From positions 32,365 through 96,364 of the forward strand of contig NZ_PZJU01000012.1 in assembly GCF_003206715.1 (NCBI RefSeq): a stretch of 64,000 nt of DNA. The letters are read 5' to 3'. The position numbers and the translations under genes are program-made. The notes beneath the pieces were generated by a model. The model did not search any database. It worked only from the letters and a program-made list of their open reading frames with translations, and had not been told where the DNA came from. The DNA comes from Salinicola peritrichatus. Lineage in GTDB: Bacteria; Pseudomonadota; Gammaproteobacteria; Pseudomonadales; Halomonadaceae. Shown in pieces: positions 14,976 through 36,109 of this stretch. Position 1 is the first letter of the stretch, and each line of letters starts with the position of its first letter.

Positions 14976-15014
14976 ATTCATTGGCATTTGACCAAAAACA
15001 ACGAGGATCGACCG

Positions 15015-19454: not shown

Positions 19455-19457
19455 GCC

Positions 19458-20330: not shown

Positions 20331-21325
20331 TGATGATCCTGGAACGCAATACCCTGCTGATCATGGCGGTGTTGGCAGCACTGTTTCCGCTGCTGGTCGG
20401 CAATCAATACGCCCTGCATATCGGCATCATGGTGCTGTTCTACGCCGTGCTGGCGACCAGTCTCAACCTGATCGTGGGCTATGTCGGCGAGTTCTCGCTG
20501 GGGCATACCGCCTTCCTCGGATTGGGCGCCTATGCCGCCGCGCTACTGTCGCTGCGCATGGGCCTGCCGATATGGGCCACGATACCGCTGGCCGGGGTGA
20601 TCTCGGCGCTGTTTGGTGCCGCCATCGGTGCCATCACCCTGCGGCTGCGCGGTCCCTATTTCGTGATCATCACGCTGGCCTTCGCTGAAGTGTTGCGCAT
20701 TATCGCCAACAACTGGATGGGGCTCACCAACGGCCCCATGGGGCTCTCCGGCGTGGTGCAACCGGCACTGCTTGCCGATGCCTCGCCCTTGGCGGCCAAG
20801 CGCTTCTATTTCTACCTGGCGCTGGCGATCGCGGTGGTCGCGCTCTATCTGGCTTACCGTTTCGTCTACTCCAACAACGGGCGGGCCGCGGTGACCGTAC
20901 GTGAGAACCGCTACGTGGCCCAGTCGGTAGGGATTCAGCCGTTCGCCTACGCCATGCGCGCCTTCGTGCTCGGGGCGTTTCTGGCCGGGCTGGCCGGCGG
21001 TTTCTACGCCCACTACATCACCTTCGTCGGCGCCAATGTCTTCGGCTTCGCCTTCATGGTCAGCATGATCATCATGGTGCTGATCGGCGGCAAGGGCACC
21101 CTGGTGGGACCGCTGGTCGGAGCGCTGCTGATCACCGTGCTGAACGAATACCTGCGTGAATTCCAGGAATTGCGCATGTCGCTGTTCGGACTGATCGTGA
21201 TCGGCGTGGTGCTGTTCCTGCCCAACGGCTTGATGGGCTTCCTGAACCTGCGTCGCGAACGCCGCCGTGCCACACCGGCAGCGGCCGCGGAAAGCCACGC
21301 CGAAGCGCCGGGAGGCAGCGCATGA
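20330..21325 (+). CDS. livM: LIV-type ABC importer permease 2 (LivM-like)
   Basis: A 331-residue second permease subunit. SLNLIVGYVGEFSLGHTAFL and the later GGKGTLVGPLVGA motif are typical of LivM. The two are translationally coupled: the ATG at 20330 shares its A with the TGA of the previous gene. The C-terminus extends into a short polar Ala/Arg-rich tail. Confidence 0.92.
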   Translation: MMILERNTLLIMAVLAALFPLLVGNQYALHIGIMVLFYAVLATSLNLIVGYVGEFSLGHTAFLGLGAYAAALLSLRMGLPIWATIPLAGVISALFGAAIGAITLRLRGPYFVIITLAFAEVLRIIANNWMGLTNGPMGLSGVVQPALLADASPLAAKRFYFYLALAIAVVALYLAYRFVYSNNGRAAVTVRENRYVAQSVGIQPFAYAMRAFVLGAFLAGLAGGFYAHYITFVGANVFGFAFMVSMIIMVLIGGKGTLVGPLVGALLITVLNEYLREFQELRMSLFGLIVIGVVLFLPNGLMGFLNLRRERRRATPAAAAESHAEAPGGSA

Positions 21326-22113
21326 GCGAGGTGCAGAATTTTCCCACACCGATGCTCTCCGTACGCGGATTGTGCAAGACATTCGGCGGCCTCAAGGCGG
21401 TGCAGGATATCGATCTCGACGTCAACAGCGGCGAGGTGTTCGGCCTGATCGGCCCCAACGGTGCCGGCAAGACGACCTGCTTCAACCTGATCACCGGCTT
21501 CTATACCCCGACGGCGGGCCGGGTGACCTTCCAGGGCCATGACATCACCGGCCACAGCCCCTACCGGATCGCCCGTCGGGGGCTGGTGCGCAGCTTCCAG
21601 AAAACCAACGTGCTCAAGGCGTTGAGCGTGTTCGAGAACGTGCTCGCCGGTCACTACCTGAGTACGCGGCAAACGTTGTTGGCGACCTTCTTCCCGCATG
21701 CCGGGGTCAGCCGGGCGGAACGCGAGGCACGCGACAGCGCCGCGCGTATCGTCGAGCTGATGGGGCTGGCAGCGCGCATGGATACGCCGGCCTTCCGGCT
21801 CTCCTGCGGCGAGCTGCGGCTGCTGGAAGTCGCGGTGGCGCTGGCGGCCAAGCCGGCGCTGCTGATGCTCGACGAACCGGCGGCGGGGCTCAACAGCCAG
21901 GAAGCGATGCGCTTCGGCAGCATTCTCAAATCGCTGCGCCGCAGCGAGGTGGAGTCGATCGTGCTGGTGGAACACAACATGAGTCTAGTCATGGAGGTCT
22001 GCGACCGGGTGATGGTGATGCACTTCGGCAGCAAGCTGGCCGAGGGCCGCCCGGAGCAGGTCAAGAACGACCCGCAGGTGATCGAAGCCTATCTCGGGAG
22101 GGCCCGCGCATGA
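21322..22113 (+). CDS. livG: LIV-type ABC importer ATPase 1 (LivG-like)
   Basis: A 263-residue ATPase with Walker A GPNGAGKTT, signature LSCGELRLLEVA (a variant of LSGGQ, with Cys-Gly), Walker B LLMLDEPAAG and the switch histidine in LVEHNM. The ATGA overlaps with both neighbours indicate tight coupling. It energises uptake with the LivF-like subunit. Confidence 0.93.
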   Translation: MSEVQNFPTPMLSVRGLCKTFGGLKAVQDIDLDVNSGEVFGLIGPNGAGKTTCFNLITGFYTPTAGRVTFQGHDITGHSPYRIARRGLVRSFQKTNVLKALSVFENVLAGHYLSTRQTLLATFFPHAGVSRAEREARDSAARIVELMGLAARMDTPAFRLSCGELRLLEVAVALAAKPALLMLDEPAAGLNSQEAMRFGSILKSLRRSEVESIVLVEHNMSLVMEVCDRVMVMHFGSKLAEGRPEQVKNDPQVIEAYLGRARA

Positions 22114-22829
22114 GTGCATCCACGCCCTTGTTGCAGGTCAGCGGGCTCCACGTGGCCTACGGCAAGATTGCCGCCCTGCACGGTATCGATATGGAGGTCG
22201 CCGCCGGTGAGATCGTGGCGCTGATCGGGGCCAACGGCGCCGGCAAGAGCACCACGCTGCGCACCATCTCGGGGCTGCTCAAGCCGAGTCGCGGCAGCAT
22301 CACCTGGGATGGCCGGGAGATCGCCGGGATGGACGCCGAGCGCATCGTCGCCGCCGGTATCGCTCACTGCCCGGAGGAGCGCCACATCTGGCCGGCCATG
22401 ACGGTGCGCGAAAACCTGATGCTGGGTGGTTATCTGTGCACGTCTCGCGCCCAGGTGGAGCAGCGCATGGAGCAGGCCTTCCAGCGCTTTCCGCGTCTGC
22501 GCGAACGCGATCGGCAGATGGCCGGCACCCTGAGCGGCGGCGAACAGCAGATGCTCGCCATCGCCCGGGCGTTGATGTCCGAACCCCGGCTGTTGATTCT
22601 CGACGAGCCCAGCCTGGGGCTATCGCCGAAGATGGCCGACGAGGTGTTCGACGTGGTGCGCGAGATCAATGCCCGCGGCGTTACCGTGCTCGTCGTCGAG
22701 CAGAACGTGCACAACGCGCTGGACATCGCTTCGCGCGCTTACGTGGTGGAGACCGGCGTTATCAGCACCCACGCTGACGCCGCCAGTTTGTTGGAGAATC
22801 CGGAAGTGTTGAGCGCCTATCTGGGTTAG
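22110..22829 (+). CDS. livF: LIV-type ABC importer ATPase 2 (LivF-like)
   Basis: A 239-residue ATPase with Walker A GANGAGKST, signature LSGGEQQMLAIARAL and Walker B LLILDEPSLGL. Last gene of the importer operon; a repeat element begins at its stop codon. Confidence 0.93.
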   Translation: MSASTPLLQVSGLHVAYGKIAALHGIDMEVAAGEIVALIGANGAGKSTTLRTISGLLKPSRGSITWDGREIAGMDAERIVAAGIAHCPEERHIWPAMTVRENLMLGGYLCTSRAQVEQRMEQAFQRFPRLRERDRQMAGTLSGGEQQMLAIARALMSEPRLLILDEPSLGLSPKMADEVFDVVREINARGVTVLVVEQNVHNALDIASRAYVVETGVISTHADAASLLENPEVLSAYLG

Positions 22830-23048: not shown

Positions 23049-24278
23049 ATGTCCAATCAACTTCGTATTGGCATCATCGGGGGCGGGATCGGCGGGGTGG
23101 CGCTCGCTCGTGCCCTGCTGCGCCATGGCATCGACTGCCACCTGTTCGAGCAGGCGTCTGCCTTCGGTGAAGTGGGCGCCGGGGTGCAGATGACCCCCAA
23201 CGCCGTCAAGGTGCTCAAGGCGTTGGGGCTGGGCGAGGAATTGCAGCGCATCGGCTTCCTGCCGGAGGCGATGGTGGGGTTCAACTGGGAGAGCGCCGAG
23301 GAGCTGTTCCGCACGCCGCTCAAGGAGAGTTTTCCGCAGGTCTACGGTGCCGAGTTCTATCATGTCCATCGCGCCGATCTGCACGCCATCCTCAGCGCCG
23401 ACATCCCGGCGGAGAAGGTCACCTTCAACGCGCGCTGCACCGGTGTGACCCTCGATGACGGCTCGGCCACCGCCATCTTCGCCGACGGTAGGCACTTCCA
23501 GGCCGACCTGATCATCGGTGCCGATGGCATTCACTCGCCGGTGCGCGCTGCGCTGTGGGGCAACGACGAGCCGCAGTTCACCGGGCATATGTGCTGGCGC
23601 GCGCTGGTGCCGGTGGAGCAGCATCCGTTGCCTTTCGTGGGGCCCTACGCGGCGTTCTGGATGGGGCCCAAGGCCCACGTGGTGACCTACTACGTGAAAG
23701 GCGGCAAGGCCGTGAATATCGTCGCCGTCACCGAAACCGCCGACTGGGTGGAGGAGTCCTGGACCGAGCCGAGCTCCACCGAGGAGCTGCTGGGCGCCTA
23801 CCAGGGATGGCACGAGAACCTGATCCGCCTGTTCGAGCAGACCGATCCCGAACAGACTTTCAAGTGGGGCCTGTTCGACCACGACCCGATGCCGCAGTGG
23901 TCCAAGGGGCGTGCCACTCTGCTCGGCGATGCCGCGCATCCGATGCTGCCGTTCCTGTCCCAGGGCGCGGCGATGGCGATCGAGGACGGCTATGTACTGG
24001 CCGAGGCCCTGGCCCATGTCGAGGGCGACATCCCGGCGGCGCTGAGTGCCTACGAGAACGAGCGCCGGCCACGTACCTCCGAGGTGCAGTTGCAGGCGCG
24101 TGAGCGGGGTCGCAGCTATCATCTCTCCACGCCGGAGGAGCTGCGCAAGCGCGACGAAGCGTTCCGTGAGGCACAGAAGAAGGACCCCAACGCGGTGGGA
24201 ATCCGTGCCGAGTGGATCTATGCCTACGACGCCACCACCTGCCGCGAGCGTTTCGATACCGTCTCGACACCGGCTTGA
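23049..24278 (+). CDS. nicC: NicC-like FAD monooxygenase (6-hydroxynicotinate 3-monooxygenase family)
   Basis: Class A flavin monooxygenase expected to convert 6-hydroxynicotinate to 2,5-dihydroxypyridine with loss of CO2. The 409-residue protein has the FAD GxGxxG (IIGGGIGGVALA), the GADGIHS motif and the second FAD site LLGDAAHPMLP. H210 and Y214 match the H211/Y215 pair I recall for P. putida NicC, but position 47 is Gln (GAGVQ) where that enzyme has His, and the Cys202 region also differs. The true substrate may therefore be a related hydroxypyridine. It has its own promoter region and AGGAG ribosome site. Confidence 0.75.
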   Translation: MSNQLRIGIIGGGIGGVALARALLRHGIDCHLFEQASAFGEVGAGVQMTPNAVKVLKALGLGEELQRIGFLPEAMVGFNWESAEELFRTPLKESFPQVYGAEFYHVHRADLHAILSADIPAEKVTFNARCTGVTLDDGSATAIFADGRHFQADLIIGADGIHSPVRAALWGNDEPQFTGHMCWRALVPVEQHPLPFVGPYAAFWMGPKAHVVTYYVKGGKAVNIVAVTETADWVEESWTEPSSTEELLGAYQGWHENLIRLFEQTDPEQTFKWGLFDHDPMPQWSKGRATLLGDAAHPMLPFLSQGAAMAIEDGYVLAEALAHVEGDIPAALSAYENERRPRTSEVQLQARERGRSYHLSTPEELRKRDEAFREAQKKDPNAVGIRAEWIYAYDATTCRERFDTVSTPA

Positions 24279-24412: not shown

Positions 24413-25132
24413 ATGCACAGCGTCACTATCAAAGGCCGGCGCGGCGTTGCCGCGAGCAAGAAAAGCAAGGCCGTCAACAAGAACAAACCGGGCAGACCGG
24501 GTGGGGCGACGAGCAACGGACGCGAGCAGATCCTCGATGCCGCCGAACTGCTGTTCGCCGAACGTGGCTACGCGGGGACCACGCTGCGCGAGGTGGCCGA
24601 TGCGGCACATGTCACCCAGGCCTTGATCAACTACTACTTCGGTTCCAAATACGGCCTATTCGAAGAAGTCTTCCTGCGCCGGGGCCGCCGAATATCCGAT
24701 CAACGCCTGGCGAACCTGCACGAATTGGAAAGGAATGGCGATTTCCGCGTGGAAACGATCGTTCGCGCCTTCCTGCTGCCCATACTCGAACTGCGCGACG
24801 ACCCTTCGGGACGCGCTTTCATCCGTCTCCAGGCCCGGCTGCACACGGAGCCACCGGAGATTTCCTACAGCCTGCGCAACGAAGCCTACAACGCCTCCAC
24901 CCAGGCCTTCGTCGAGGCCTTTCTCAAGGCGCTTCCGCATATCACGGAGCGCGAGGCCAACTGGCGCGTCACGCTGATGATCGGCGCCTACATGTACGCC
25001 TTCTCCGATACCCATCGACTGGAACAACTGGCCCCCGACAGTTGCAATCCGAATGATTCTGAAGAGGTCATGGAACAGATGACGGCTTTCGTCGCCGCCG
25101 GTATGCAGGCGCCCAGGCCGGGTTCCGGCTGA
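24413..25132 (+). CDS. TetR-family regulator at right end of the nic island
   Basis: A 239-residue protein. A basic N-terminal tail (KKSKAVNKNKPGRPGG) precedes the helix-turn-helix (ILDAAELLFAERGYAGTTLR through TQALINYYFGSKYGLFEEVF). It is a clear paralogue of the TetR at 12619. The start ATG at 24413 has GGAG 5 bases upstream. It is convergent with the GntR gene. Probable autoregulator and controller of nicC and/or the importer (inference). Confidence 0.85.
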   Translation: MHSVTIKGRRGVAASKKSKAVNKNKPGRPGGATSNGREQILDAAELLFAERGYAGTTLREVADAAHVTQALINYYFGSKYGLFEEVFLRRGRRISDQRLANLHELERNGDFRVETIVRAFLLPILELRDDPSGRAFIRLQARLHTEPPEISYSLRNEAYNASTQAFVEAFLKALPHITEREANWRVTLMIGAYMYAFSDTHRLEQLAPDSCNPNDSEEVMEQMTAFVAAGMQAPRPGSG

Positions 25133-25214: not shown

Positions 25215-25970
25215 TTACGGAACTTGCAATTTCGTCGACGGCAGGTCCGGACGAGAGTGTTGAGAAGCATCATCGTTCAGGCGTGAAATAGCCAATTCAC
25301 TGGATTGGCTCACATGTTCGGCCATCAGCTCGGCGGCAGCTTCGGCATCGCCCGCTTCGATGGCCTTGAAAACGGCACGGTGGCGACGATAAACCTGCTT
25401 CGAGTAGGCGGCGTCATAGGCATAGCGCGAGCGCAGCGTAAAGGTCACCGCCAGTACCTGATGCGCGATGGTGAGCAGCATCTGGCTGCCGGCCGCGGCG
25501 GCGATCGCCTCGTGAAAGGCAAGGTCGGCCTGGGCCTGCTCCATTGGCGTGGCGCGGCGGTCGAGCCGGTGGTGGGCGTCCAACGCCCCGGCGATCGCCT
25601 CGAGCTGGGCCTGATTGCGGTTGACGGCGGCGCAGCGCGCGGCGTGGGATTCGAGTACGCGTCGCAGCGCATAGATCTGCTCGATGTCGCTGGAAGTGAA
25701 TGAAGCCACGTAGGCGCCGCGGTTGTGGCTCAGGTTGACCAGTCCTTCGCCCTGGAGGATGAACAATGCCTCACGTACCGGGGTGCGACTGATTTCCAGC
25801 TCGGCGGCGAGGTTGCGTTCGCGGATCGGCTCGCCGGGCGGAAGCTCGCCGGTGAGGATGGCCTTGCGGATGACATGCGCGACCGCTTCGCTGCGACGAG
25901 AGGAGAGCGTGGCGTTACCCACATCCTGAGCGAATTCGATGTACAGCTTTTTCAACCGACTGTATGGCAT
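25215..25970 (-). CDS. GntR-family regulator, FCD subfamily
   Basis: A 251-residue regulator. The winged helix lies at residues 25-95 (AVAHVIRKAILTGELPPGEPIRE, ISRTPVREALFILQGEGLV) and is followed by an all-helical FCD ligand domain with histidine and acidic metal-ligand candidates (FHEAIAAAAGSQ, RRHRAVFKAIEAGD, MAEHV). It starts at ATG; a TTG is directly upstream. It lies downstream of the Amt-like gene on the same strand, and the TGGTATACCA palindromes between the Amt-like gene and the divergent operon fit known GntR operators. Probable local repressor responding to the pathway substrate. Confidence 0.85.
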   Translation of the reverse strand: MPYSRLKKLYIEFAQDVGNATLSSRRSEAVAHVIRKAILTGELPPGEPIRERNLAAELEISRTPVREALFILQGEGLVNLSHNRGAYVASFTSSDIEQIYALRRVLESHAARCAAVNRNQAQLEAIAGALDAHHRLDRRATPMEQAQADLAFHEAIAAAAGSQMLLTIAHQVLAVTFTLRSRYAYDAAYSKQVYRRHRAVFKAIEAGDAEAAAELMAEHVSQSSELAISRLNDDASQHSRPDLPSTKLQVP

Positions 25971-26112
25971 CAATATAGCGCTGGCTTAACGTATCAATAT
26001 GAGGTCGCTCCCGGTCGCGAAGATCTCGATGCAACGATTCTGATACGACGAACCCCGGCAGCGATACGCTGGCGGGGCCCGTCGAGATACGGCAATGCTT
26101 GGGAGCATGGGC

Positions 26113-27531
26113 CTAGCTTACTACACCCGAGCGCACGCCGTCGCCTCCGATGACGGGCTCGGGGGTGGTGCCCGTCTGTGCGCCGTTCGTTGGCAGGTCG
26201 TCGCCGCAGTTCGCTACGCCCCAATGGGCGGCATCGAGGCCGATCATCTCCGTCTCGGGCGAGACCCGTAGCTGCCCCAGCTTCTCGAGGATAAGACAGA
26301 GCACCAGCGCCGGGATCCCCGATACCGCCATGGTGGTCACGACGCCGACCAACTGCCACCACGGCGTGATCTGGGCATGCCCCAGCGCATACTCGCCTTC
26401 GAGACCGGGGTAGCCGCCCGTCGCGGTTCCCCAATGCACGAAACCGACCAGGATCGCGCCGATGGCACCGGGGCCGAGCGCCAACGGCACGACTTTCTGC
26501 TCGTCGATACCGAGACGATACATCAGCCTGGCGGTGGCGAGCGCGACCAGCGGGCCGAGCGCACCGAACAGCATCGACTGCAATGGCGTGCCGATGTCGA
26601 ACAGGGTGCCACTCATTATTGCGCCGGCAATCGGACCGAGAAAGACCCAGCGCGGTTCACGCTGCAGGTAGCCGACGATCGCGCCGACAATGCCGCCGCT
26701 GAGCAGCGCGGCGAACAGGTTGATGAGAATCAGGCCGAGTCCGGTCTGGGTGAAGGAGATGCCATAGACTCCTTCGCCGGGGATGATGAAGGTCGAACCG
26801 ATCGCGATGAACGGCAGCGCGAACAGAATGAACATCACGCCGGCGGCAACGAAGCCGTAATTGCTGGGAACGGGGCCGAGTCCGGCGGGATCCCGGCCGA
26901 ACGCGCCGCGGCGCGGTCCCAGGCGCCAGGCCAGCACCAGCGACCAGGTACCGGCGAAGATATAGAGCGGGAAGACGCCTTCGAAATCGTGCACGCCGCG
27001 ATTGGTCAGCGGCGACAGTGGCCCCCAGCACAGATAGCCGACCAGCGGCGAGAGCACGACGCCGACGACGAACGCCATGATATAGAGCGCCTTGGCCTTG
27101 ATGCGCTCGATCGCACTGCTGTGAATCAGCGCCATGGTCGCCATCGCGAAGGTCACGAAGAAGACGAGAAAGACCTGCAGGACATCCGCCTCGGGCACCA
27201 CCGCTGGATCGAGAAACATCGCCGGCGTGCTCGCCGCAGGACCGCCGATCCACCACGCCTGGAGCGCCGCGTAGAGCGCGTTGGGCACATCGAAGGCCTG
27301 ATTGAACTGCCACTCCCACAGCCCGTAGCCGAACAGCATGGTACCGAAGCCACCGACCATCGCCGCCGTCAGCTTCTGCGCCCAGGTATCGAGTACGTTG
27401 CGCGCCCGCACCAGCCCCATGTCGATGAAACCGAGCCCCAGCACCACCAGCAGCACGCTGAGCGCACCGACCATGTAGATGAATGTCAGCAGGATATATT
27501 CGGTCGAGACTTGTTGTTGGAATATTTCCAT
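26113..27531 (-). CDS. Amt-like membrane protein lacking the twin histidines
   Basis: A 472-residue protein with 11-12 hydrophobic segments. It keeps the Amt-like C-terminal tail (LRVSPETEMIGLDAAHWG) and the HSSAIERIKAKA helix boundary. The Amt DFAGG-x3-H motif reads DFEGVFPLY, so the first pore histidine is Tyr. The region of the second (FDIGTPLQSMLFGAL) has no histidine. It may therefore not conduct ammonia in the usual way and could carry another small solute or sense one. The start MEIFQQQVS is preceded by GGAGGAGGAG. It is divergent from the phosphotransferase operon and shares its palindromic operators. Confidence 0.78.
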   Translation of the reverse strand: MEIFQQQVSTEYILLTFIYMVGALSVLLVVLGLGFIDMGLVRARNVLDTWAQKLTAAMVGGFGTMLFGYGLWEWQFNQAFDVPNALYAALQAWWIGGPAASTPAMFLDPAVVPEADVLQVFLVFFVTFAMATMALIHSSAIERIKAKALYIMAFVVGVVLSPLVGYLCWGPLSPLTNRGVHDFEGVFPLYIFAGTWSLVLAWRLGPRRGAFGRDPAGLGPVPSNYGFVAAGVMFILFALPFIAIGSTFIIPGEGVYGISFTQTGLGLILINLFAALLSGGIVGAIVGYLQREPRWVFLGPIAGAIMSGTLFDIGTPLQSMLFGALGPLVALATARLMYRLGIDEQKVVPLALGPGAIGAILVGFVHWGTATGGYPGLEGEYALGHAQITPWWQLVGVVTTMAVSGIPALVLCLILEKLGQLRVSPETEMIGLDAAHWGVANCGDDLPTNGAQTGTTPEPVIGGDGVRSGVVS

Positions 27532-27667
27532 CTTCGCTCCTCCTCCAGAGCGCACCGTGCTGCGTCCGCCAGGGATCGAAGCGCGGCAAACCGGGTTGTT
27601 GTTGTTGATGCCTTACGCTCTTGCGCTGTCACGCAACCGGCCCGGTAAGCGTGGCCAAGCCAATGAG

Positions 27668-27695
27668 CGCAATGAATGGTATACCATTCATTGCG
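27668..27695. promoter_or_regulatory. 28-bp perfect palindrome, probable GntR operator 1
   Basis: A perfect palindrome centred between 27681 and 27682, with core AATGGTATACCATT and symmetrical flanks out to CGC...GCG. It lies about 137 bases upstream of the Amt-like start and 233 upstream of the divergent gene. TGGTATACCA is the type of site recognised by GntR/FCD regulators. Confidence 0.75.
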
Positions 27696-27733
27696 GACTA
27701 TGCGCCACAGAGCTAGTATTGAGCAACCAATAA

Positions 27734-27747
27734 AATGGTATACCATT
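27734..27747. promoter_or_regulatory. Second palindrome, probable GntR operator 2
   Basis: AATGGTATACCATT repeats the core of operator 1, centre to centre 59 bases. A further half-site GAATGGTA follows at 27754-27761. The pair could allow looping or graded repression of both divergent promoters. Confidence 0.72.
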
Positions 27748-27928
27748 AAAACCGAATGGTAGATGCCAAGGGGTCTCTGTAGCGCCGGCTCGAAACCTAT
27801 CCAGAACGAGTCAGAGAGCGTCCGGATCAGAACCCATCGAGGTCGGTACAACGGCTTCGGAGCAAGATAACCACAACAGCTATCGACAACCTGAGCAGTC
27901 AAAATCACAACGAACAAGAGGAAAGACC

Positions 27929-29794
27929 ATGCAACAGACCGCAACGCCGCAGGCGGCCGCGTCGTCTTCGGCCAAGGCCCGCTTCACGAGCCCATTCGAC
28001 ATCACCACGCCCGAAGGCGCCGAAGGCTGGCAGGAGCTCTATCCCTACTACGCGTTGATCAGCCCCGAGCGGCGTGAGATGGAAGACGAGAAACTGTGGT
28101 TCTTCGACGGCATGCACAGCCCGGCGCCGCTCTACCCCTTCGACACCATCATGACCGAGAACTGGTGGGTGGCGGCCAGCCAGATGTCCAACCGCGTCTG
28201 GCCGATCCCGCTGGCGCTCGGCATCGACCACCGCATCATCAACGGCTATCTCTACATCAGCCCCAACGCCGTCACCGACCCGGACGAGGTGGCCAAGCGC
28301 GCCGAGCACTTCAACGCCCGCGCTGGCCACTACTACGAGAACTGGGACACCATCTATGACGAGTGGGTGACCAAGGCGCGGGACTGCATCGAGCGCCTCA
28401 AGGTGATCGAGTTCAAGCCGCTGCCGGAGCTGGTGCCCGACGAGCAGGTGTTCGGCCATCGCGGCCTCTACTCCTCCCACGACCTGCTCACCGCCTACAA
28501 CACCCTGATCCAGAACATGCTGGAGATGGGCTCCTACCACTTCGAGATGCTCAATCTCGGCTACGGCGCCTACCTCACCTTCCGCGAGTTCTGCCAGGAG
28601 GCCTTCCCCGGCATCAGCGACCAGACCATCACCCACATGGTCTCCGGCATCGACATCCTGCTGTTCCGCCCCGACGACGAGGTGCGCGGCCTGGCCGAGT
28701 TGGCGGTGGAGCTGGGCCTCGACGAGGTGGTGCTCGCCAACGAGTCGCCCGAGGTGATGCTCGCGGCCATCGGGGCCGCGCCCAACGGCGACAAGTGGCT
28801 GGCTGCCTATGAAGAGGCCCGCGAGCCCTGGTTCTGGTTCTCCACCGGCGTCGGCTACACCCACGAGGACCCGGTATGGATGAACGACCCGCGGCTGCCG
28901 TTCACGGCACTGCGTGGTTATATCAAGGCGTTGAAGAGCGGCGATGACATCCGCCGCCCGCTGGACGAGATTCTCGACAAGCGCACCCAGGTCACGGCGG
29001 AATATCGCGAGCTGCTGCCCACCGAGGATGATCGCGAAGCCTTCGACGGCCTGGTCGAACTGGCGCGCAAGGTCTACCCCTTCGTCGAGGATCACAACTT
29101 CTACGTCGAGCACTGGCACCACTCGCTGTTCTGGGAGAAGGTCCGCGAGCTGGGCGACCTGTTCGTTGCCCACAACTTCTTCGACGACCGCGAGGATGTC
29201 TTCTATCTCCATCGTCACGAGATCTACGACGCTCTCTACGACGTATTGATCGGCTGGGCGGTGGGCACGCCGCCGCGCGGCGAAGTCTACTGGCGGCCGC
29301 TGATTGCCCGCCGCAAGCAGATTCGCGACACCCTCTGCCGCTGGTCGCCGCCGCCCGCCCTGGGCGTGCCGCCGGAGACCATCACCGAACCGCTGACCAT
29401 CATGCTGTGGGGCATCACGCCAGAGACGATCGATGAGTGGCTGGGGGTCGATGCGACGGCGGACGGCGAGTTGCGTGGTGTGGCCGCCTCGCCGGGCAAG
29501 GTCACCGGCCGCGCCCGGGTGATCACCGACTTCGCCCAGCTCTACGACATCGAAGACGGCGAGATCCTGGTCTGCCGCATCACCGCACCGAGCTGGGCAC
29601 CGGTATTCCAGCGCGTGGCCGCGGCGGTCTCCGATGTCGGCGGCATGATGGCCCACACCGCGATCATCTCCCGCGAGTATGGCCTGCCCGCGGTGGTCGG
29701 CACCGGCTTCGCCACCACCAGCATCACCAACGGCGACCTGATCGAGGTCGATGGCAACGAAGGTATCGTGCGCGTACTCGACAAGGAGGCATAA
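27929..29794 (+). CDS. PEP-synthase-like phosphotransferase, phosphohistidine/substrate subunit
   Basis: A 621-residue protein. The C-terminal 100 residues form the mobile phosphohistidine domain of PEP-utilising enzymes (GVAASPGKVTGRARVITD, then GGMMAHTAIISREYGLPAVVGT with the active His). The N-terminal 500 residues, rich in Trp, Tyr and His, have no PEP-synthase barrel and probably bind the acceptor. With the 365-aa ATP-binding subunit next door, the arrangement matches phenylphosphate synthase of Thauera (70 + 40 kDa), which phosphorylates phenol with ATP. The acceptor here is unknown. GAGGA precedes the ATG. Confidence 0.75.
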   Translation: MQQTATPQAAASSSAKARFTSPFDITTPEGAEGWQELYPYYALISPERREMEDEKLWFFDGMHSPAPLYPFDTIMTENWWVAASQMSNRVWPIPLALGIDHRIINGYLYISPNAVTDPDEVAKRAEHFNARAGHYYENWDTIYDEWVTKARDCIERLKVIEFKPLPELVPDEQVFGHRGLYSSHDLLTAYNTLIQNMLEMGSYHFEMLNLGYGAYLTFREFCQEAFPGISDQTITHMVSGIDILLFRPDDEVRGLAELAVELGLDEVVLANESPEVMLAAIGAAPNGDKWLAAYEEAREPWFWFSTGVGYTHEDPVWMNDPRLPFTALRGYIKALKSGDDIRRPLDEILDKRTQVTAEYRELLPTEDDREAFDGLVELARKVYPFVEDHNFYVEHWHHSLFWEKVRELGDLFVAHNFFDDREDVFYLHRHEIYDALYDVLIGWAVGTPPRGEVYWRPLIARRKQIRDTLCRWSPPPALGVPPETITEPLTIMLWGITPETIDEWLGVDATADGELRGVAASPGKVTGRARVITDFAQLYDIEDGEILVCRITAPSWAPVFQRVAAAVSDVGGMMAHTAIISREYGLPAVVGTGFATTSITNGDLIEVDGNEGIVRVLDKEA

Positions 29795-29796
29795 CA

Positions 29797-30894
29797 ATGA
29801 CTCAGGCTCCCTACATTCTGTGGCTCGACGACGCCTCGGCTCCCGGCAACGCGCTGCTCGGCGGCAAGTTCGCCAGCCTGGCGCACTCCACCGCCGCCGG
29901 CCTGGCGGTGCCGCCGGGCTTCGGCGTCACCACCGCCGCCTATCGTCACTTCATGACCGCCACCGGGCTGGCCGAAGAGGCGGCGCGCATCCGCGCGCGG
30001 GCGCCGCACATGGCGCTCAACGAGATCAAGGGCGAGACCGCCAGGCTGGTCGAAGGCATCAAGACGGCCCCGCTGCCGCCCGAACTCGATACGAAGATCC
30101 GCGAGAGCTACGCGGTGCTCGAGCGGCGCACCGGCGTCAGCGAGACGCCGGTGGCGGTGCGCTCCAGCGGTGAATCGGAGGATCTGGAAGGCGCCAGCTT
30201 CGCCGGCCAGTACGAGACCTACCTGTGGATCTGCGGCGTCGATGCCGTGATTCGCCATATCCGCGCCTGCTGGGCCGGAATGTTCGGCGACGCCGTGCTC
30301 TCCTACCGGGTGGATGGCGAGAACGCTGTGGCGGCGGGGGACTTCGGCATGTGCGTCGGCATCCAGCAGATGGTTCAGGCCCGCGCCGCCGGGGTGATGT
30401 TCACCCTCAACCCACTCAACGGCGACCGCTCCAAGGTGGTGATGGAAGCCTGCTGGGGGCTCGGCGAGGGCGTGGTCAAGGGCGACATCACCCCCGCCCA
30501 GTTCACCGTCGACAAGGTGACCCTGGAGATCCTCGACCGCAAGACGGTGGAGCAGACCGAGACCTACTGCTTCGACCCCGCGGCGGGCGAGGTGACGCTG
30601 ATGCCGATGGCGGACGAGCGCTGCCGGAAGCCCTGCCTCGACGATGAGCAGGTGCTCGAGCTGGCGAAGCTCGCCAAGCAGATCGAGCGCCAGCGCGGCG
30701 CGCCCCAGGACATCGAGTGGGCGATCGGCGAGCGCGGCGAGCTGCGCGTGCTTCAGGTGCGCCCCGAGACGGTGTGGAGCCACCGCGAGACCAAGAGCCT
30801 GGTGGAAAAGGGCCAGTCGCCGGTCAACCGCGTGCTGGCCCGCTTCGCCGGGGTGAAGGTCGCGGCGAAAGCGGCCCAGGGAGAGTCACGGTGA
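29797..30894 (+). CDS. PEP-synthase-like phosphotransferase, ATP-binding subunit
   Basis: A 365-residue ATP-grasp protein equal to the N-terminal domain of PEP synthase (LGGKFASLAHSTAAGLAVPPGF, VRSSGESEDLEGASFAGQYET, GVMFTLNPLNGDRSKVV, DIEWAI...VLQVRPETVW). It would phosphorylate the histidine of the preceding 621-residue partner. GGAGG lies in the end of that gene, two bases separate the pair, and the stop overlaps the next GTG start. A truncated single-domain protein of this kind can only work with a partner, supporting a split enzyme. Confidence 0.82.
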   Translation: MTQAPYILWLDDASAPGNALLGGKFASLAHSTAAGLAVPPGFGVTTAAYRHFMTATGLAEEAARIRARAPHMALNEIKGETARLVEGIKTAPLPPELDTKIRESYAVLERRTGVSETPVAVRSSGESEDLEGASFAGQYETYLWICGVDAVIRHIRACWAGMFGDAVLSYRVDGENAVAAGDFGMCVGIQQMVQARAAGVMFTLNPLNGDRSKVVMEACWGLGEGVVKGDITPAQFTVDKVTLEILDRKTVEQTETYCFDPAAGEVTLMPMADERCRKPCLDDEQVLELAKLAKQIERQRGAPQDIEWAIGERGELRVLQVRPETVWSHRETKSLVEKGQSPVNRVLARFAGVKVAAKAAQGESR

Positions 30895-31778
30895 AGGCGG
30901 CGGACTTTCTCTACCACCGCGCCGGTTCGGTGGCCGAGGCGGTGACGCTGCTCGACGAATACGCCGGCGAGGCGCGCCTGCTCGCCGGCGGCCAGAGCCT
31001 GATGCCGATGCTCAACATGCGGCTGTGGCGGCTGGGCGCGCTGATCGACGTCAACCAGGTGCCGGGGCTCGACGGCATCGAGGTCGAAGGCCAGGGCGAT
31101 CTTGAAGCAACCCGGGTCGGCGCGCTGACCCGCTACGCCAGCCTGGAGCGCTCGCCGCTGGCGGCGAGCCGCCTGCCGCTGCTGGTCGAGATGGTGCGCC
31201 ATATCGGCGATCGCCAGGTGCGCAATCGCGGCACCCTCGGCGGCAGCCTGGTGCAGGGGGACCCCACCGCCGAGATGCCGCTGGCCTGTCTGGTGCTCGA
31301 CGCGCGGGTACGGGTGGAGAGCGGCCGGGGTGGCCGCGAGATCGCCATGGGCGAGTTCTATCACGGCTCCTACGCCGCCGCGTTGGAATTCGACGAGATG
31401 GTCACCGAGATCCGCTTTCCGCGCCATCCGCAACATTTCGCCTTCAGCGAGCTGACCCGCCGTCACGGCGACTTCTGCGTGCTCTCGGTGGCGGTCACCG
31501 GCGAATGCGACAGCGACGGCCGCTGGCACGATGTTCGCATCGGCCTTGGCGGCGTCAACGACATGCCGGTGCTGGCGGAGGCGGCGAGCGCGCGGCTGGC
31601 CGGCACTCGGCTGGCGGATGACGACATCCGCGAGGCCGCCGCGCTGACGCAAGAGGCCATCGACCCGCCCAGCGACATGCGCGCCACGGCGGAGTACCGG
31701 GCGCACCTCGTCCCCGTCCACGTACGGCGGGCCTTGCAGCAACTGTGCAGCAAAAACCGAGCAGCCGACCGGCGTTGA
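30891..31778 (+). CDS. Molybdenum hydroxylase FAD-binding subunit (CoxM-like)
   Basis: A 295-residue medium subunit of xanthine-oxidase-family hydroxylases. The FAD motifs ARLLAGGQSLMPMLNMR and the RNRGTLGGSLVQGDPTAEMP stretch are present. It passes electrons from the iron-sulfur subunit to an acceptor. Translation starts at GTG in a GTGA overlap with the previous gene, GGGAG upstream. The order FAD, CoxG, Fe-S, Mo is tightly packed. Confidence 0.9.
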   Translation: MKAADFLYHRAGSVAEAVTLLDEYAGEARLLAGGQSLMPMLNMRLWRLGALIDVNQVPGLDGIEVEGQGDLEATRVGALTRYASLERSPLAASRLPLLVEMVRHIGDRQVRNRGTLGGSLVQGDPTAEMPLACLVLDARVRVESGRGGREIAMGEFYHGSYAAALEFDEMVTEIRFPRHPQHFAFSELTRRHGDFCVLSVAVTGECDSDGRWHDVRIGLGGVNDMPVLAEAASARLAGTRLADDDIREAAALTQEAIDPPSDMRATAEYRAHLVPVHVRRALQQLCSKNRAADRR

Positions 31779-31793
31779 AGCGAGAGGACACAG

Positions 31794-32429
31794 ATGAAAT
31801 TCGAACAACACTTCCAGATCGCCGAGCCCATCGGCAAGGTCTGGGCGTTCTTCGAGCAGTTCGAGCAGGTGGCGAAGTGCATTCCCGGCGTCAAGCAGGC
31901 CGAACAGCTCGACGACGACAACGTGGCGGTCACCGTCACCCAGAAGCTGGGGCCGATGTCCGCCACCTTTGAGGCGCGGGTACACATCGTCGAGCGCGTG
32001 GCCGGCGAGCGCCTTGGCTTCACTTCCACCGGCAAGGCGGTGAAGGGCGCCATCGGCAACTTCCGCGCCTCCAACAGCGTGGAGCTGCACGAAGAGGGCG
32101 GCCGCACCCACGTCAGCGTCAGCGGCGAGGTGGCGTTGGCCGGGGCACTCGGCAGCGTGGGCCAGAAGGTGATCACCCGGCAAGCCGAGAAGGTCACCGC
32201 GGAGTTCACCCGCAATCTCGAACGGGCGCTCTCCGGCGAGGATATCGAGACGACCACGGCACCTGCCGCGCAGGCCCGCCGCCCGGCGGCCAGGACGCCA
32301 GCCACGGCGGCAGGAGGCGTGAGCGCCACGCCAGCGGCGGCGTCCGGCGAATTCTGGCCCAAGCTTTCGGCGGGGCTCAGCGCGGCGGCTTTAGTGGTTA
32401 GCCTGCTGGTGCTGTGGCAGGTGAGTTGA
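31794..32429 (+). CDS. CoxG-like SRPBCC protein with C-terminal membrane anchor
   Basis: A 211-residue protein. Residues 1-145 form a CoxG/SRPBCC domain (FEQHFQIAEPIGKVWAFFEQ, CIPGVKQAEQL). An Ala/Thr/Pro-rich linker follows, then a C-terminal hydrophobic helix (LSAGLSAAALVVSLLVLWQVS). CoxG proteins tether molybdenum hydroxylases to the membrane and link them to the quinone pool. It lies between the FAD and Fe-S subunit genes. Confidence 0.87.
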   Translation: MKFEQHFQIAEPIGKVWAFFEQFEQVAKCIPGVKQAEQLDDDNVAVTVTQKLGPMSATFEARVHIVERVAGERLGFTSTGKAVKGAIGNFRASNSVELHEEGGRTHVSVSGEVALAGALGSVGQKVITRQAEKVTAEFTRNLERALSGEDIETTTAPAAQARRPAARTPATAAGGVSATPAAASGEFWPKLSAGLSAAALVVSLLVLWQVS

Positions 32430-32439
32430 GGAGGCGGCA

Positions 32440-33009
32440 ATGAGTTTCGAACGAACCCTGAACGAACAGGAAATCAGCCTGACCCTCAACGGCGAGCGCG
32501 TGCGCGCCTGGGCGCCGAGCCGCATGCACGCGGCGGATTTCCTGCGCCAGCGGCTGGGGCGCACCGGCACCCATGTCGGCTGCGAGCAGGGCGTGTGCGG
32601 CATGTGTACCGTGATGGTCGACGGCCAGGCGGTGAAATCCTGCCTGATGCTCGCCGCCCAGCTCGACGGTGCCGAGGTATGCACCGTGGAATCGCTGGCC
32701 GAGGAGAACGGCAACCTGAACGCTTTGCAGCAGGCGTTCAAGAAACACCACGGCTTGCAGTGCGGTTTCTGCACGCCGGGCTTTCTGATGCTGGCGACCA
32801 GCCTGGCGGCGCGGGGCGAGGCGATGAGTCGCGAGCAGATCCGCGACGAGGTCAGCGGGGTGCTGTGCCGCTGCACCGGCTACGAGGGCATCGTCCGCGC
32901 CGTCGAGGAGTATCTGAGCGTTCAACAAGCTGAAGGCTCTCGTTTTCGACAAGCTGAAGGCTCTCGACACGCCGAAGGCGCTCAACAGGCGATGGAGGCA
33001 CAGTCATGA
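32440..33009 (+). CDS. Molybdenum hydroxylase 2Fe-2S subunit (CoxS-like)
   Basis: A 189-residue small subunit with two [2Fe-2S] sites: the plant-type cluster (GCEQGVCGMC plus a later Cys) and the C-terminal helical cluster (CGFC...CRC). The last 30 residues (QQAEGSRFRQAEGSRHAEG) come from a duplicated 17-base DNA unit and lie beyond the family's usual end. An ATGA overlap couples it to the large subunit. Confidence 0.92.
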   Translation: MSFERTLNEQEISLTLNGERVRAWAPSRMHAADFLRQRLGRTGTHVGCEQGVCGMCTVMVDGQAVKSCLMLAAQLDGAEVCTVESLAEENGNLNALQQAFKKHHGLQCGFCTPGFLMLATSLAARGEAMSREQIRDEVSGVLCRCTGYEGIVRAVEEYLSVQQAEGSRFRQAEGSRHAEGAQQAMEAQS

Positions 33010-35426
33010 ACGAGTTCGTGGAAGCCCCGGCCGCACCGAAGGAGGAGACCTGGCAGGAGGAGGGACTCAAGCGCCGCCTGATCGGCACCAGCGTGCCGCG
33101 CACCGAGGATGAGCGACTGCTGCGCGGCGACGGCCGCTTCACCGACGACGTGCAGTTCGCCCATCAGCTCGAAATGGCGGTGGGGCGCTGCCCCTTCCCC
33201 CACGCCCGCATCCTCTCCATCGATTTCTCCAAGGCGACGGCACTGGAAGGGGTCAAGCACATCCTCACCGGCGCGCAGGTGCGCGAGCTGAGCGATCCGC
33301 TCACCGTGCTGCGTCCGGTGCCCGGTGCGCCGCAGCTACCCTACTACGCGCTGGCCCAGGATAGGGCGACCTACGAGGGCCAGCCGGTGGTGAGCGTCGT
33401 CGCCACCAGTCGGGCGCTGGCCGAGGACGCGATCGAGCTGGTCGAGATCGAGTACGAGCCGCTGCCCCACGTCAGCGATGCCATCGAGGCGCTGGAGGAG
33501 GGCGCGCCGCTGCTGCATCCGCAGTCGCTGGATTCCAACCTGCTGGCGAGCAACAGCGACCGCGCCGGCGAGCCGGAGGCGCGCATCGAGGAGGCCGACG
33601 TGGTGATTCGCAGCCGAATGCGCATTGGCCGGGTCACGCCGCTGCCGATGGAGCCGCGCGGCGTGGTGGCGGTGTGGCGCCCCGGCGCACGGGAGCTCTC
33701 GATCCATACCTCCACCCAGGTGCCGCATCTGGTGCGCAAGCAGCTCGCCGAGTCGCTGCGCCTCGGCGAGGAGTGCATCCGCGTCTCGGCCTCGGACGTC
33801 GGCGGCGGCTTCGGCATGAAGCTCGGCGTCTATCCCGAGGACGTGCTGGCGAGCCTGCACGCCATGGCGCTGCGTCGCCCGGTGAAGTGGATCGAGGATC
33901 GCATGGAGCACTTCCGCGCCAGCACCCACGGGCGCGAGTCGATCCACGACTACTGCCTGGCGGCGGACGCCGAGGGGCGCTTCGTGGCGATGACCAACAC
34001 CTACACCACCGACATCGGCGGCTGGAACTCGCCGTTCGGCTCGTCGCAGCTCTCCAGCGTGGTCTTCACCGGCCCCTACCGGGTGGCGGACGCCGCCGTG
34101 GAGCGCCGCGTGGCGATGACCAACAAGACCCCGGTGGGCGCCTACCGCGGCTACGGCCAGCCGGAGGTCAACTTCGCCCTCGAAGTGCTGGTCGACCGCC
34201 TGGCGCGCAGGCTCGGCAAGGACCCGCTGGCGCTGCGCGAGATGAACATGCTGCGCCCGGAGGACCTGCCCTGGACGGTACCCAGCGGCGCGGTCTACGA
34301 CAGCGGCGACTACGTGAAGACGCTGCACATGGCCGCCGAGGCGGTGGACTACGCCGCGCACCGTGGCCGCCCGCGCACGCCGCGGGCCGACGGGCGCATC
34401 CTCGGCATCGGGCTCTCCGCCTTCGTCGAGCGCACCGGCTACGCCAGCGCGCGCTTCCTGGCCAATCGCGGCTCGAAGTTCGGCGCCCACGAGAGCGTCA
34501 CCCTGCGCGCCAACCGCTCCGGCACCATCGACCTCTACACCGGCGTCTCCTCCATCGGCCAGAGCAGCGAGACCGCCTTCGCGCAGATCTGCGCCGAGGT
34601 GCTGGGGGTGGAGTTCGATGCCGTGCGGGTGCATAGCGGCGACACCGCCACTTCGCCGCTCAATACCGGCGCCTTCGCCTCGCGCACCCTGATCGCCGCG
34701 GCCGGCGCCCTGCGCGAGGCGGCGCTGCCGTTTCGCGACAAGACCCTGCGCCTCGGCGCCTGGGCGCTGGGCATCGAGCCTGGCGACGCGGTGATCGAGG
34801 GGCGCGAGGTGCGCCATCGCAGTGATGCCGACAAGCGCGTGGCGCTCGCCGACGTCTTCAGCCGCGCGATCCTCGGCCAGGGCATTCCCCACGACGAGAC
34901 GCCGGGGCTGGAGACCTCCGCCCACTTCGAGCCGCCCAGCGCCGCCTTCTCTTTCGGCACCGCCGCCGCCGTGGTAGCGGTGGACCCGGAGACCGGCGAG
35001 TTCGAGGTCGAGCGCTTCGTGATGGTCCACGACTGCGGCGTGGCGGTGAATCCGATGATCGTCGAGGGGCAGGTGCGCGGCGCCCTGGTGCAGGGGCTGG
35101 GCGCGGCGCTGGGCGAGGAGCTGCGCTACGACGCCGTCACCGGGCAACTGCTCAGCGGCTCGATGCTCGACTACGCCGTGCCCCGCGCCGCCGACGTGCC
35201 GCCCATCGAGCTTTTGCACACCGAGGTGCCCTCGCCGGTGACCACCTTCGGCGTGCGCGGCGTCGGCGAGGTCGGCACCATTCCGCCCGGCGCGGCCATC
35301 GCCAATGCGATCTGCGATGCGCTGGCCGATCATGGCGTGGAACTGTCCGCATTGCCGGTGACGCCGGAGAGCGTGTGGCGCGCCCTGGAGGCGGCCAAGG
35401 CTGCGAAAAAGGGAGAAGCGGCATGA
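33006..35426 (+). CDS. Molybdenum hydroxylase catalytic subunit (CoxL family, not CO-type)
   Basis: An 806-residue molybdopterin cytosine dinucleotide subunit. It has VGGGFGMK for cofactor binding, the active-site loop GAYRGYGQPE and the catalytic glutamate in VRGVGEVGTIPPG. True CO dehydrogenase has AYRCSFR with the copper-binding Cys; here Gly-Tyr replaces Cys-Ser, so CO oxidation is very unlikely. The enzyme probably hydroxylates an aromatic or N-heterocyclic carbon using water. Operon partners suggest the substrate is also phosphorylated by the split phosphotransferase. Confidence 0.9.
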   Translation: MNEFVEAPAAPKEETWQEEGLKRRLIGTSVPRTEDERLLRGDGRFTDDVQFAHQLEMAVGRCPFPHARILSIDFSKATALEGVKHILTGAQVRELSDPLTVLRPVPGAPQLPYYALAQDRATYEGQPVVSVVATSRALAEDAIELVEIEYEPLPHVSDAIEALEEGAPLLHPQSLDSNLLASNSDRAGEPEARIEEADVVIRSRMRIGRVTPLPMEPRGVVAVWRPGARELSIHTSTQVPHLVRKQLAESLRLGEECIRVSASDVGGGFGMKLGVYPEDVLASLHAMALRRPVKWIEDRMEHFRASTHGRESIHDYCLAADAEGRFVAMTNTYTTDIGGWNSPFGSSQLSSVVFTGPYRVADAAVERRVAMTNKTPVGAYRGYGQPEVNFALEVLVDRLARRLGKDPLALREMNMLRPEDLPWTVPSGAVYDSGDYVKTLHMAAEAVDYAAHRGRPRTPRADGRILGIGLSAFVERTGYASARFLANRGSKFGAHESVTLRANRSGTIDLYTGVSSIGQSSETAFAQICAEVLGVEFDAVRVHSGDTATSPLNTGAFASRTLIAAAGALREAALPFRDKTLRLGAWALGIEPGDAVIEGREVRHRSDADKRVALADVFSRAILGQGIPHDETPGLETSAHFEPPSAAFSFGTAAAVVAVDPETGEFEVERFVMVHDCGVAVNPMIVEGQVRGALVQGLGAALGEELRYDAVTGQLLSGSMLDYAVPRAADVPPIELLHTEVPSPVTTFGVRGVGEVGTIPPGAAIANAICDALADHGVELSALPVTPESVWRALEAAKAAKKGEAA

Positions 35427-36109
35427 ACCCGAGTATTCCCGGTCGTTATGCCGACCCAAGTTTCACCGCGCTGGAAGCGGGCGTTTTGGAGTGGCTCGAC
35501 GGCTTCTATCAGCTCGAACACCTGCTCAATACCCGCGCCTGGGTGATCGAGCTGTGCCAGGGCAACGCCAGCGAGGCGCTCAGGTTCGCGGCGCTGAGCC
35601 ACGACGCCGAGCGCTTCTTCCCCGGTGGGCCCTCCGATACTCCGGCCAACGGCTTCGACGATCCCGACTATCTGTTCGCTCACTCTACCCGCTCCGCCGA
35701 CATCGTCGAGGCGTGGATGGCGGAGCAGGGGGCGGACGCGGCATTTCGCCGCCAGGTGCGGCGGCTGATTCTGCGTCACGAGATCGGCGGCGGCTGGGAG
35801 GCCGATATCCTCCAGGCCGCCGATGCGCTCTCCTTCCTGGAGGTGTTCGACTGGCTGGCGGTCGATTGGGTACGGCGCGGTGCCTACACCATCGAAAGCG
35901 CCAAGGAGAAGCTGTGCTGGAGCATGCAGCGCATCCGCCCGCCGCTGGCGCTGCACCGGGCGCTGCCGCTGTTCGAGGCGGCCACTCGCACCCTCGACGC
36001 CGCCTTCGATATCGAGATCGATCTCAAGGCGCGCCGGCAACAGGCCAGCAGCCGGTGTTTCCTGCTCGGGGAATCCAGCCATGGCATTGAGCAGGGCGGT
36101 GCCGCTTAG
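35423..36109 (+). CDS. HD-like hypothetical protein ending the operon
   Basis: A 228-residue protein with no confident family. Spaced residues resemble an HD-domain metal site: His in YQLEHLLNTR, His-Asp in AALSHDAERFF, His-Glu in ILRHEIGGGWEAD, and Asp in LQAADALSF. The protein is helical, and a signal peptide or membrane segment is absent. The ATGA overlap with the Mo subunit, and GGGAG before it, show it belongs to the operon. A hydrolase or phosphatase acting on the phosphorylated intermediate is one idea, not demonstrated. Confidence 0.65.
   Translation: MNPSIPGRYADPSFTALEAGVLEWLDGFYQLEHLLNTRAWVIELCQGNASEALRFAALSHDAERFFPGGPSDTPANGFDDPDYLFAHSTRSADIVEAWMAEQGADAAFRRQVRRLILRHEIGGGWEADILQAADALSFLEVFDWLAVDWVRRGAYTIESAKEKLCWSMQRIRPPLALHRALPLFEAATRTLDAAFDIEIDLKARRQQASSRCFLLGESSHGIEQGGAA

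Follow-up and report, generated by a model that had tools for sequence, protein, structure and literature searches.

A probable 3-hydroxypyridine operon in Salinicola peritrichatus coupling a predicted two-component aromatic dikinase to a molybdenum hydroxylase and a predicted phosphohydrolase

A 64,000-nucleotide stretch of the Salinicola peritrichatus genome (contig NZ_PZJU01000012.1, positions 32,365 to 96,364; hereafter the window) carries a head-to-tail array of seven genes, identified from its open reading frames (ORFs), that encodes on one strand the two subunits of a phosphoenolpyruvate (PEP)-synthase-like phosphotransferase (KinH and KinI), the flavin adenine dinucleotide (FAD), CoxG-like, 2Fe-2S and molybdenum (Mo) subunits of a hydroxylase, and an HD-type protein. 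We propose that this array is probably an inducible aerobic operon for 3-hydroxypyridine, in which phosphorylation of the substrate is followed by Mo-dependent hydroxylation at C6 and then by dephosphorylation. An original prediction, made from the sequence by a model, had described seven coupled genes facing a GntR regulator and an Amt-like protein; every gene that it named is present, with junctions that comprise, in gene order, a 2-base gap, a 4-base overlap, gaps of 15 and 10 bases, and two further 4-base overlaps. The GntR/FCD and Amt-family genes lie on the opposite strand, divergent from the operon (Table 1).

In the proposed pathway, KinI would spend ATP to phosphorylate His576 of KinH, whose swivel domain would swing and, by handing the group on, phosphorylate 3-hydroxypyridine at its hydroxyl; the resulting 3-pyridyl phosphate would be retained in the cell, and its ring would be electron-poorer. 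The Mo enzyme, made up of four components with the CoxG-like subunit as membrane anchor beside the FAD, 2Fe-2S and Mo subunits, would then hydroxylate C6, next to the ring nitrogen, after which the HD protein would strip the phosphate to yield 2,5-dihydroxypyridine, and NicX, NicD, NicF and NicE would convert this product to fumarate. The GntR protein would govern the divergent promoter, with the Amt-family protein possibly serving as importer of the pyridine. This order of steps is proposed because of a parallel with CreHI, CreJEF and CreD, which make up the Cre pathway in Corynebacterium glutamicum, and because of the ligand set and the weak fold matches of the HD protein. Tying KinH and KinI to the HpeHI and CreHI kinases, together with the conserved HD protein, gives a scheme that is complete and cheaply testable. 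If it is true, the hydroxylase would be the first Mo enzyme of its kind, among the cases known to us, to act on a phosphate ester, and the logic of phosphorylating, transforming and dephosphorylating a substrate would extend from phenols to N-heterocycles.

Gene identities were assigned from Pfam and NCBIfam profile matches to the window proteins. Against the NCBIfam model PRK08296.1-5, whose cut-off is 578, KinH reaches 809 bits, and against the Pfam PEP-utilizers family 78 bits; among 14 control genomes the NCBIfam model is matched in one, that of C. glutamicum, by a gene that we infer to be creH. The swivel motif of KinH, SDVGGMMAH, ends at His576 and fits the pattern T/SxxGGxxxH, and this histidine is invariant across 33 aligned sequences (structure alignments here cover chosen loci, 33 rows, and exclude L095, which has an internal stop). 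The original prediction had proposed structure prediction of this 621-residue subunit, and the AlphaFold model (predicted local distance difference test, pLDDT, 90.1) matches rifampin phosphotransferase (RPH; 5fbu) over 611 columns, with an E value of 1.4e-18, a query template-modelling (TM) score of 0.60 and a root-mean-square deviation (rmsd) of 7.9. The top six entries of the fold list are all RPH, whereas pyruvate phosphate dikinase (PPDK) and enzyme I reach a query TM of at most 0.16, their longest alignments (470-509 columns) arising only at an rmsd above 26. As modelled, KinH follows the RPH fold over its whole length, and its acceptor domain is RPH-like, unlike that of PEP synthase.

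KinI finds PEP synthase 9dae (231 bits) and 9goj, a 387-residue chain (207 bits), as its matches in the Protein Data Bank (PDB); a separate ATP-grasp subunit of this sort is a trait of two-component small-molecule dikinases. The layout is that of phenylphosphate synthase (PpsAB), as first suggested from the sequence, and KinH is 45% identical to an Azoarcus protein encoded beside ppc genes. According to the 2025 JBC paper on HpeHI (PMC12167813), the two-component small-molecule dikinases HpeHI, CreHI and PpsAB share an RPH-like acceptor domain and the T/SxxGGxxxH motif. Phosphorylation of aromatic hydroxyls, which the original prediction took to be unfamiliar in aerobic halophiles, is already established in aerobes for CreHI on 4-cresol and HpeHI on hydroxyacetophenones (PMC12167813; PMC9618137). 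By family, and in the case of KinH also by modelled fold, KinH and KinI constitute a two-component phosphotransferase of the PEP-synthase-like kind, with predicted kinase activity.

To place the operon among its relatives, we scanned genomes with an alignment of five KinH proteins and kept 79 loci, drawn from the top 80 out of at least 523 relatives (L005 and L043 share their contig coordinates and form a single locus); the frequencies below apply to those loci only, many contigs end inside the operon, and ORF calling at neighbour loci also took in antisense frames. A close clade comprises 34 loci whose KinH is at least about 64% identical to that of the window; the 19 with at least 8 kb downstream were counted and the 15 shorter ones dropped. 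KinI and the FAD, CoxG, 2Fe-2S, Mo and HD genes are each present in 19/19 of these long loci, such that the same gene set does recur in other genomes and the kinase genes do not usually lie elsewhere. At set thresholds, NicX is found in 14/19 (at 44% identity, with L044 narrowly under and counted as a miss), NicD, NicF and NicE in 15/19 each, and GntR orthologs of at least 40% identity in 15/19. The arrangement is not due to chance, because it is conserved in both Pseudomonadota and Actinomycetota.

The link to nic genes that had been noted in the window is tighter in many relatives: 12 of the 19 long loci (L046, L050, L051, L054, L057, L058, L059, L062, L064, L066, L068 and L094) have NicD and NicX inserted amid the genes of the hydroxylase, nic genes follow the HD gene in L043 and L044 (directly so in L043, the nearest relative), and in L060 they lie close by on the other strand. 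Four loci without NicX (L052, L053, L061 and L063) come from genomes that hold a NicX relative 42-43% identical to that of the window, and a search of eight whole genomes found a relative in six and none in those of L076 and L085 (Acidimicrobiia). A close Mo gene occurs in 27 loci, 24 of which also carry HD; of the other three, L072 has a contig that stops within the Mo gene, and L076 and L085 lack HD. Conversely, the 37 loci with a distant KinH and no close Mo gene have nic genes in 0/37 and HD in 1/37, the latter (L088) falling inside the clade in our tree. This maximum-likelihood tree of 87 rows, built without L095, is a quick one with long-branch warnings; it recovers a 45-row clade (SH-aLRT 99) that contains all 28 Mo-labelled rows, a label that requires 12 changes, partly because truncated contigs are unlabelled. 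Rows that we typed as Pps, Hpe or Cre by their neighbouring genes fall outside the clade, as do haloarchaeal rows, several of them being long-branched. Of 57 further genomes from its genus, family and order, one (G025, the Phytohalomonas tamaricis source of L043) encodes KinH at full length, and the family is present in 4/369 genomes of the class, own genome included, a patchy distribution that probably reflects mobility.

The window itself encodes a lower pathway from 2,5-dihydroxypyridine, with NicX (whose match is unique in its genome), NicE and NicF recognised by sequence and NicD by position and orthology. The NicD-like protein, which has no NCBIfam match at 1e-20, we take from its position to be N-formylmaleamate deformylase; on the same grounds the NicF-like protein is presumably maleamate amidase, its PDB matches 4l07 and 3ot4/3uao having been deposited as isochorismatase-family proteins. 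Because the kinase/Mo operon is linked to nic genes and NicX is present in the window, the operon most likely makes 2,5-dihydroxypyridine, as judged from gene content. Mo enzymes of the quinoline 2-oxidoreductase type add a hydroxyl beside the ring nitrogen, and the precursor is therefore, by family chemistry, most likely 3-hydroxypyridine. Both the nic link and the affinity of the Mo subunit to quinoline 2-oxidoreductase support the earlier suggestion of a hydroxylated N-heterocycle. Degradation of 3-hydroxypyridine is also described for Agrobacterium sp. DW-1 (PMC6525221). An open-licence library yielded no literature on phosphorylation in 3-hydroxypyridine breakdown, which is no proof that such work is lacking. 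Nicotinate was rejected as substrate, as a NicC-type or NicC-like monooxygenase occurs in 0/79 loci, though the window has a flavin monooxygenase gene (23049-24278, + strand). The product of that gene scores 225 bits against NicC (8uiq) and 242 bits against tropone 2-monooxygenase (8rqh), and has no match in the 79 loci.

The best PDB match of the Mo subunit is quinoline 2-oxidoreductase (1t3q, 511 bits), an enzyme for which we know of no kinase. The active-site loop of the Mo subunit encoded in the window reads AYRGYGQ, without the Cys-type CoxL loop; since the CoxL active-site loop of aerobic CO dehydrogenase contains Cys, identity with that enzyme was rejected, and the assignment as a non-CO hydroxylase stands. 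A second loop, at residues 473-490 of this subunit, reads FVERTGYASARFLA.RGS in most members of the window clade and differs from the substrate loop of quinoline 2-oxidoreductase. Position 483 is Arg or Lys in 27/27 clade Mo proteins and position 488 is Arg in 24/27 (His in L075, L076 and L085); of four distant Mo proteins, only that of L113 is basic at 483, and the RGS stretch is missing from every one. By analogy with structures of xanthine oxidase, this loop would sit near the substrate funnel, and we therefore guess that it may bind the phosphate of the substrate. A search of the Mo subunit sequences for a phosphate-binding site yielded nothing beyond this clade-typical loop.

Against Pfam, the HD-type gene returns only a sub-threshold match to DUF4202 (26.1 bits; cut-off 35.1), and a PDB sequence search with its product gave no match at an E value of 1 or below. 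The metal ligands His33, His60, Asp61, His87, His119 and Asp134 are nonetheless invariant in 33/33 sequences, completing an H...HD...H...H...D set. Its AlphaFold model (pLDDT 93) retrieves a fold list topped by HD-superfamily proteins, several at probability 1.00, with a best E value of 7.6e-3 and none below 0.001. A phosphohydrolase role, which we propose, would agree with the Cre pathway, which likewise combines a two-component kinase, an oxidation step and a phosphohydrolase. From creJ to creC, the C. glutamicum cluster encodes CreJEF, a cytochrome P450 system, and CreD, listed as a phosphohydrolase; on two Rhodococcus plasmids the order runs P450, KinI, KinH, short-chain dehydrogenase/reductase, 2Fe-2S, FAD, HD and aldehyde dehydrogenase, with HD at the creD position. 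The oxidation step of the Cre pathway is methyl oxidation of 4-cresol by the P450, in contrast to the Mo-dependent ring hydroxylation of a pyridine proposed here. The phenol-pathway carboxylase whose absence had been remarked upon is indeed missing from the seven genes, but such a scheme does not call for one, since the phosphorylated intermediate of the Cre pathway goes on to be oxidised, by a system with P450 subunits.

The Amt-like protein does belong to the Amt sequence family (PF00909), as the original prediction held, but both of the twin histidines that conduct ammonium are gone, replaced by Tyr190 and Ala351, respectively (472-residue numbering). The replacement is common to 22/22 aligned sequences (the window protein and 21 orthologs; two truncated genes, L056 and L102, were omitted, and the start of the L057 gene was misplaced by our script), whereas the genome encodes two further Amt proteins, both canonical, in which the pair is intact. 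With both histidines lost, the protein is unlikely, on sequence grounds, to be an ammonium conductor of the known sort; instead, given where its gene lies, it may import the pyridine, which would be a new transport role in a very well studied family. A literature search for a link between Amt proteins lacking the twin histidines and pyridines found none. Between the Amt and KinH genes, ATGGTATACCAT, a perfect palindrome, occurs twice, as compared with 0 copies in 100 shuffles of the window, and these are its only two sites in the 4.6-Mb genome; the two copies are probable operators of the GntR protein. A bolder version of the scheme holds that 3-pyridyl phosphate is the true substrate of the Mo hydroxylase, read by the basic loop of the clade, that the Amt-family protein without twin histidines imports the pyridine, and that uptake and trapping by phosphate form one scavenging device; we regard this version as conceivable but doubtful.

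The operon matches the reported gene content of the 3-hydroxypyridine dehydrogenase (HpdA) cluster of Ensifer adhaerens HP1, and thus belongs to a described type. The HP1 enzyme is reportedly a four-component Mo hydroxylase, with the SRPBCC/CoxG component as a separate subunit, that forms 2,5-dihydroxypyridine; a PEP-utilizing protein and a pyruvate-phosphate dikinase are said to be involved in its activity, and its describers reportedly left the role of this PEP-synthase-like pair open. A separate SRPBCC component and a kinase pair next to the hydroxylase are what we find here, so the description of the system as undescribed, with no assigned pathway for the gene set, does not survive comparison with that reported content. 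The window differs in that its nic genes lie about 11 kb from KinH and in its host, a relative of Phytohalomonas, and an Amt-like gene and palindromes are described for it here. The HP1 cluster is that of Wang et al. 2020 (AEM 86:e01313-20); papers citing it state that its CoxG homologue was proposed as a membrane anchor (PMC11962113) and that Actinobacteria, Rubrobacteria, Thermoleophila and Proteobacteria commonly carry the cluster (PMC10117386). In Rhodococcus rhodochrous GD02, HpeHI resembles KinH and KinI in being a two-component dikinase with a swivel histidine and an RPH-like acceptor domain (PMC12167813), but the steps after it fall to a biotin-dependent carboxylase and a NagD-like phosphatase (PMC9618137). 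PpsAB, by contrast, is anaerobic, and its Azoarcus cluster includes genes for a CBS protein and phenylphosphate carboxylase. The anaerobic phenol pathway was rejected, given that neither partner is encoded among the seven genes and that the clade stands apart from Pps-type rows.

Several observations weigh against the proposed pathway. Kinase and Mo genes occur in L076 and L085 with no HD gene in 10 kb on either side and no NicX, the Amt gene (at least 50% identity) is found in only 11/19 long clade loci, and in the window about 11 kb, holding other genes, separate the last of the nic genes from KinH. The palindrome core, TGGTATACCA, lies within 0.8 kb upstream of KinH in 5/60 loci (L043, L045, L049, L060 and L068), and most relatives must therefore use another site. 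The HD protein of the window was compared with that of the Rhodococcus clusters for sequence homology, and has no BLAST similarity to it and a weak hhalign match (probability 17, E value 0.0014), its model's fold matches are weak, and HD folds include oxygenases too. The loop of quinoline oxidoreductase also has an Arg, which weakens the idea of a phosphate reader, and identity with the HP1 cluster is judged from reported gene content.

The substrate could also be 3-hydroxypyridine with the Mo enzyme acting on the free compound, the kinase working on the product or an analogue, or indirectly activating the hydroxylase, and the HD protein serving in housekeeping or repair. Many Mo hydroxylases do act on free N-heterocycles without any kinase, and the lack of HD in L076 and L085 is in keeping with such a division of roles; yet kinase, Mo and HD genes stand together throughout the long clade loci, and the kinases of the Cre and Hpe systems, which have been characterised, act first and on the small-molecule substrate, and we consider this arrangement unlikely. 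Alternatively, the same chemistry might serve a different pyridine with a 3-hydroxyl that feeds in at 2,5-dihydroxypyridine or close to it, as the nic genes, NicX included, tell us the product alone, and branches of the family are not all alike: L074 and L075 have two KinH genes each, and the genomes of L076 and L085 lack NicX. NicX is named for the unsubstituted 2,5-dihydroxypyridine, however, and the window genes followed across the 79 loci include no recurrent side-chain enzyme, a weak point that covers window genes only; such a substrate seems to us rather improbable.

That the HD protein is instead a binuclear-iron oxygenase of the PhnZ/TmpB fold, acting oxidatively, appears highly improbable. 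Oxygenases of the HD fold share compatible H, HD, H, H, D ligands, so that the ligand set fits either function, and PhnZ (4mln) and TmpB (6npa) do appear in the fold list, but at ranks 38 and 44, below the hydrolase-type HD proteins 4r8z and YpgQ (5dqw), and in cre-like clusters an HD protein takes the place of creD, which points to hydrolysis. A phenolic substrate, finally, would be in line with the characterised relatives of the kinase, which act on phenols, but we give it hardly any credence, given a clade that excludes the kinases of Pps, Hpe and Cre type and is tied to nic genes, and a Mo subunit nearest to an N-heterocycle hydroxylase.

Table 1. Features of the operon, its divergent neighbours and the nic genes, in window coordinates.
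Feature	Position	Strand	Basis or remarks
NicE-like maleate isomerase	13401-14150	+	4fq7, 440 bits
NicD-like alpha/beta hydrolase	14160-14975	+	sequence; orthologs within kinase operons
NicX, 2,5-dihydroxypyridine 5,6-dioxygenase	14988-16046	+	7cn3, 320 bits
NicF-like isochorismatase-family amidase	16088-16741	+	4l07, 321 bits; 3ot4/3uao, 136 bits
GntR/FCD regulator	25215-25973	-	PF00392 and PF07729
Amt-family membrane protein	26113-27531	-	PF00909, Ammonium_transp, 128 bits
Palindrome ATGGTATACCAT, probable GntR operator 1	27676-27687	.	between Amt and KinH
Palindrome ATGGTATACCAT, probable GntR operator 2	27735-27746	.	between Amt and KinH
KinH, acceptor-binding and swivel (phospho-His576) subunit of predicted two-component aromatic dikinase	27929-29794	+	621 aa; NF006153, 809 bits
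KinI, ATP-grasp subunit	29797-30894	+	365 aa; PF01326, PPDK_N, 308 bits
FAD subunit of Mo hydroxylase	30891-31778	+	PF00941, PF03450, FAD_binding_5; GTG start
CoxG/SRPBCC-like subunit	31794-32429	+	PF06240 (COXG); hydrophobic C-terminal tail
2Fe-2S subunit	32440-33009	+	PF01799, PF00111, Fer2_2
Mo subunit, ring hydroxylase	33006-35426	+	806 aa; PF02738, PF20256, MoCoBD_1/2; AYRGYGQ
HD-superfamily protein, proposed phosphohydrolase	35423-36109	+	228 aa; conserved metal ligands

Other genes surround the nic block of the window. Directly after NicF lies a gene for an NCS2-family nucleobase permease (16744-18051, + strand; 565 bits to the RutG model, under its cut-off), possibly a pyridine or pyrimidine porter, and further on, before the kinase operon, come genes for a branched-chain-amino-acid-type ATP-binding cassette (ABC) transporter, binding protein included (18306-22829, + strand). 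Two TetR regulator genes (12619-13299 and 24413-25132, + strand) flank this nic/ABC-transporter block, the best match of both being the PsrA model, below its cut-off.

Among the related loci, L074 (9986-14785) and L075 (9995-15810) each carry two KinH genes of the clade per cluster, 56-61% identical to KinH of the window. In L076 and L085 a second, distant Mo hydroxylase set stands beside the kinase pair and the close Mo hydroxylase, and these clusters perhaps serve a different substrate. The kinase pair of L041, from a Thermomicrobium roseum plasmid, and of L118 lies beside a different Mo hydroxylase, 38% identical to that of the window; in L041 a biotin carboxylase gene lies in between, and sugar-type ABC transporter genes come after. 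On two haloarchaeal plasmids (L042 and L138), the kinase pair is found near genes for a Rieske dioxygenase, an aldehyde dehydrogenase and a metallophosphoesterase, to which L138 adds a HAD phosphatase, a possible further variant of the phosphorylate-and-dephosphorylate theme.

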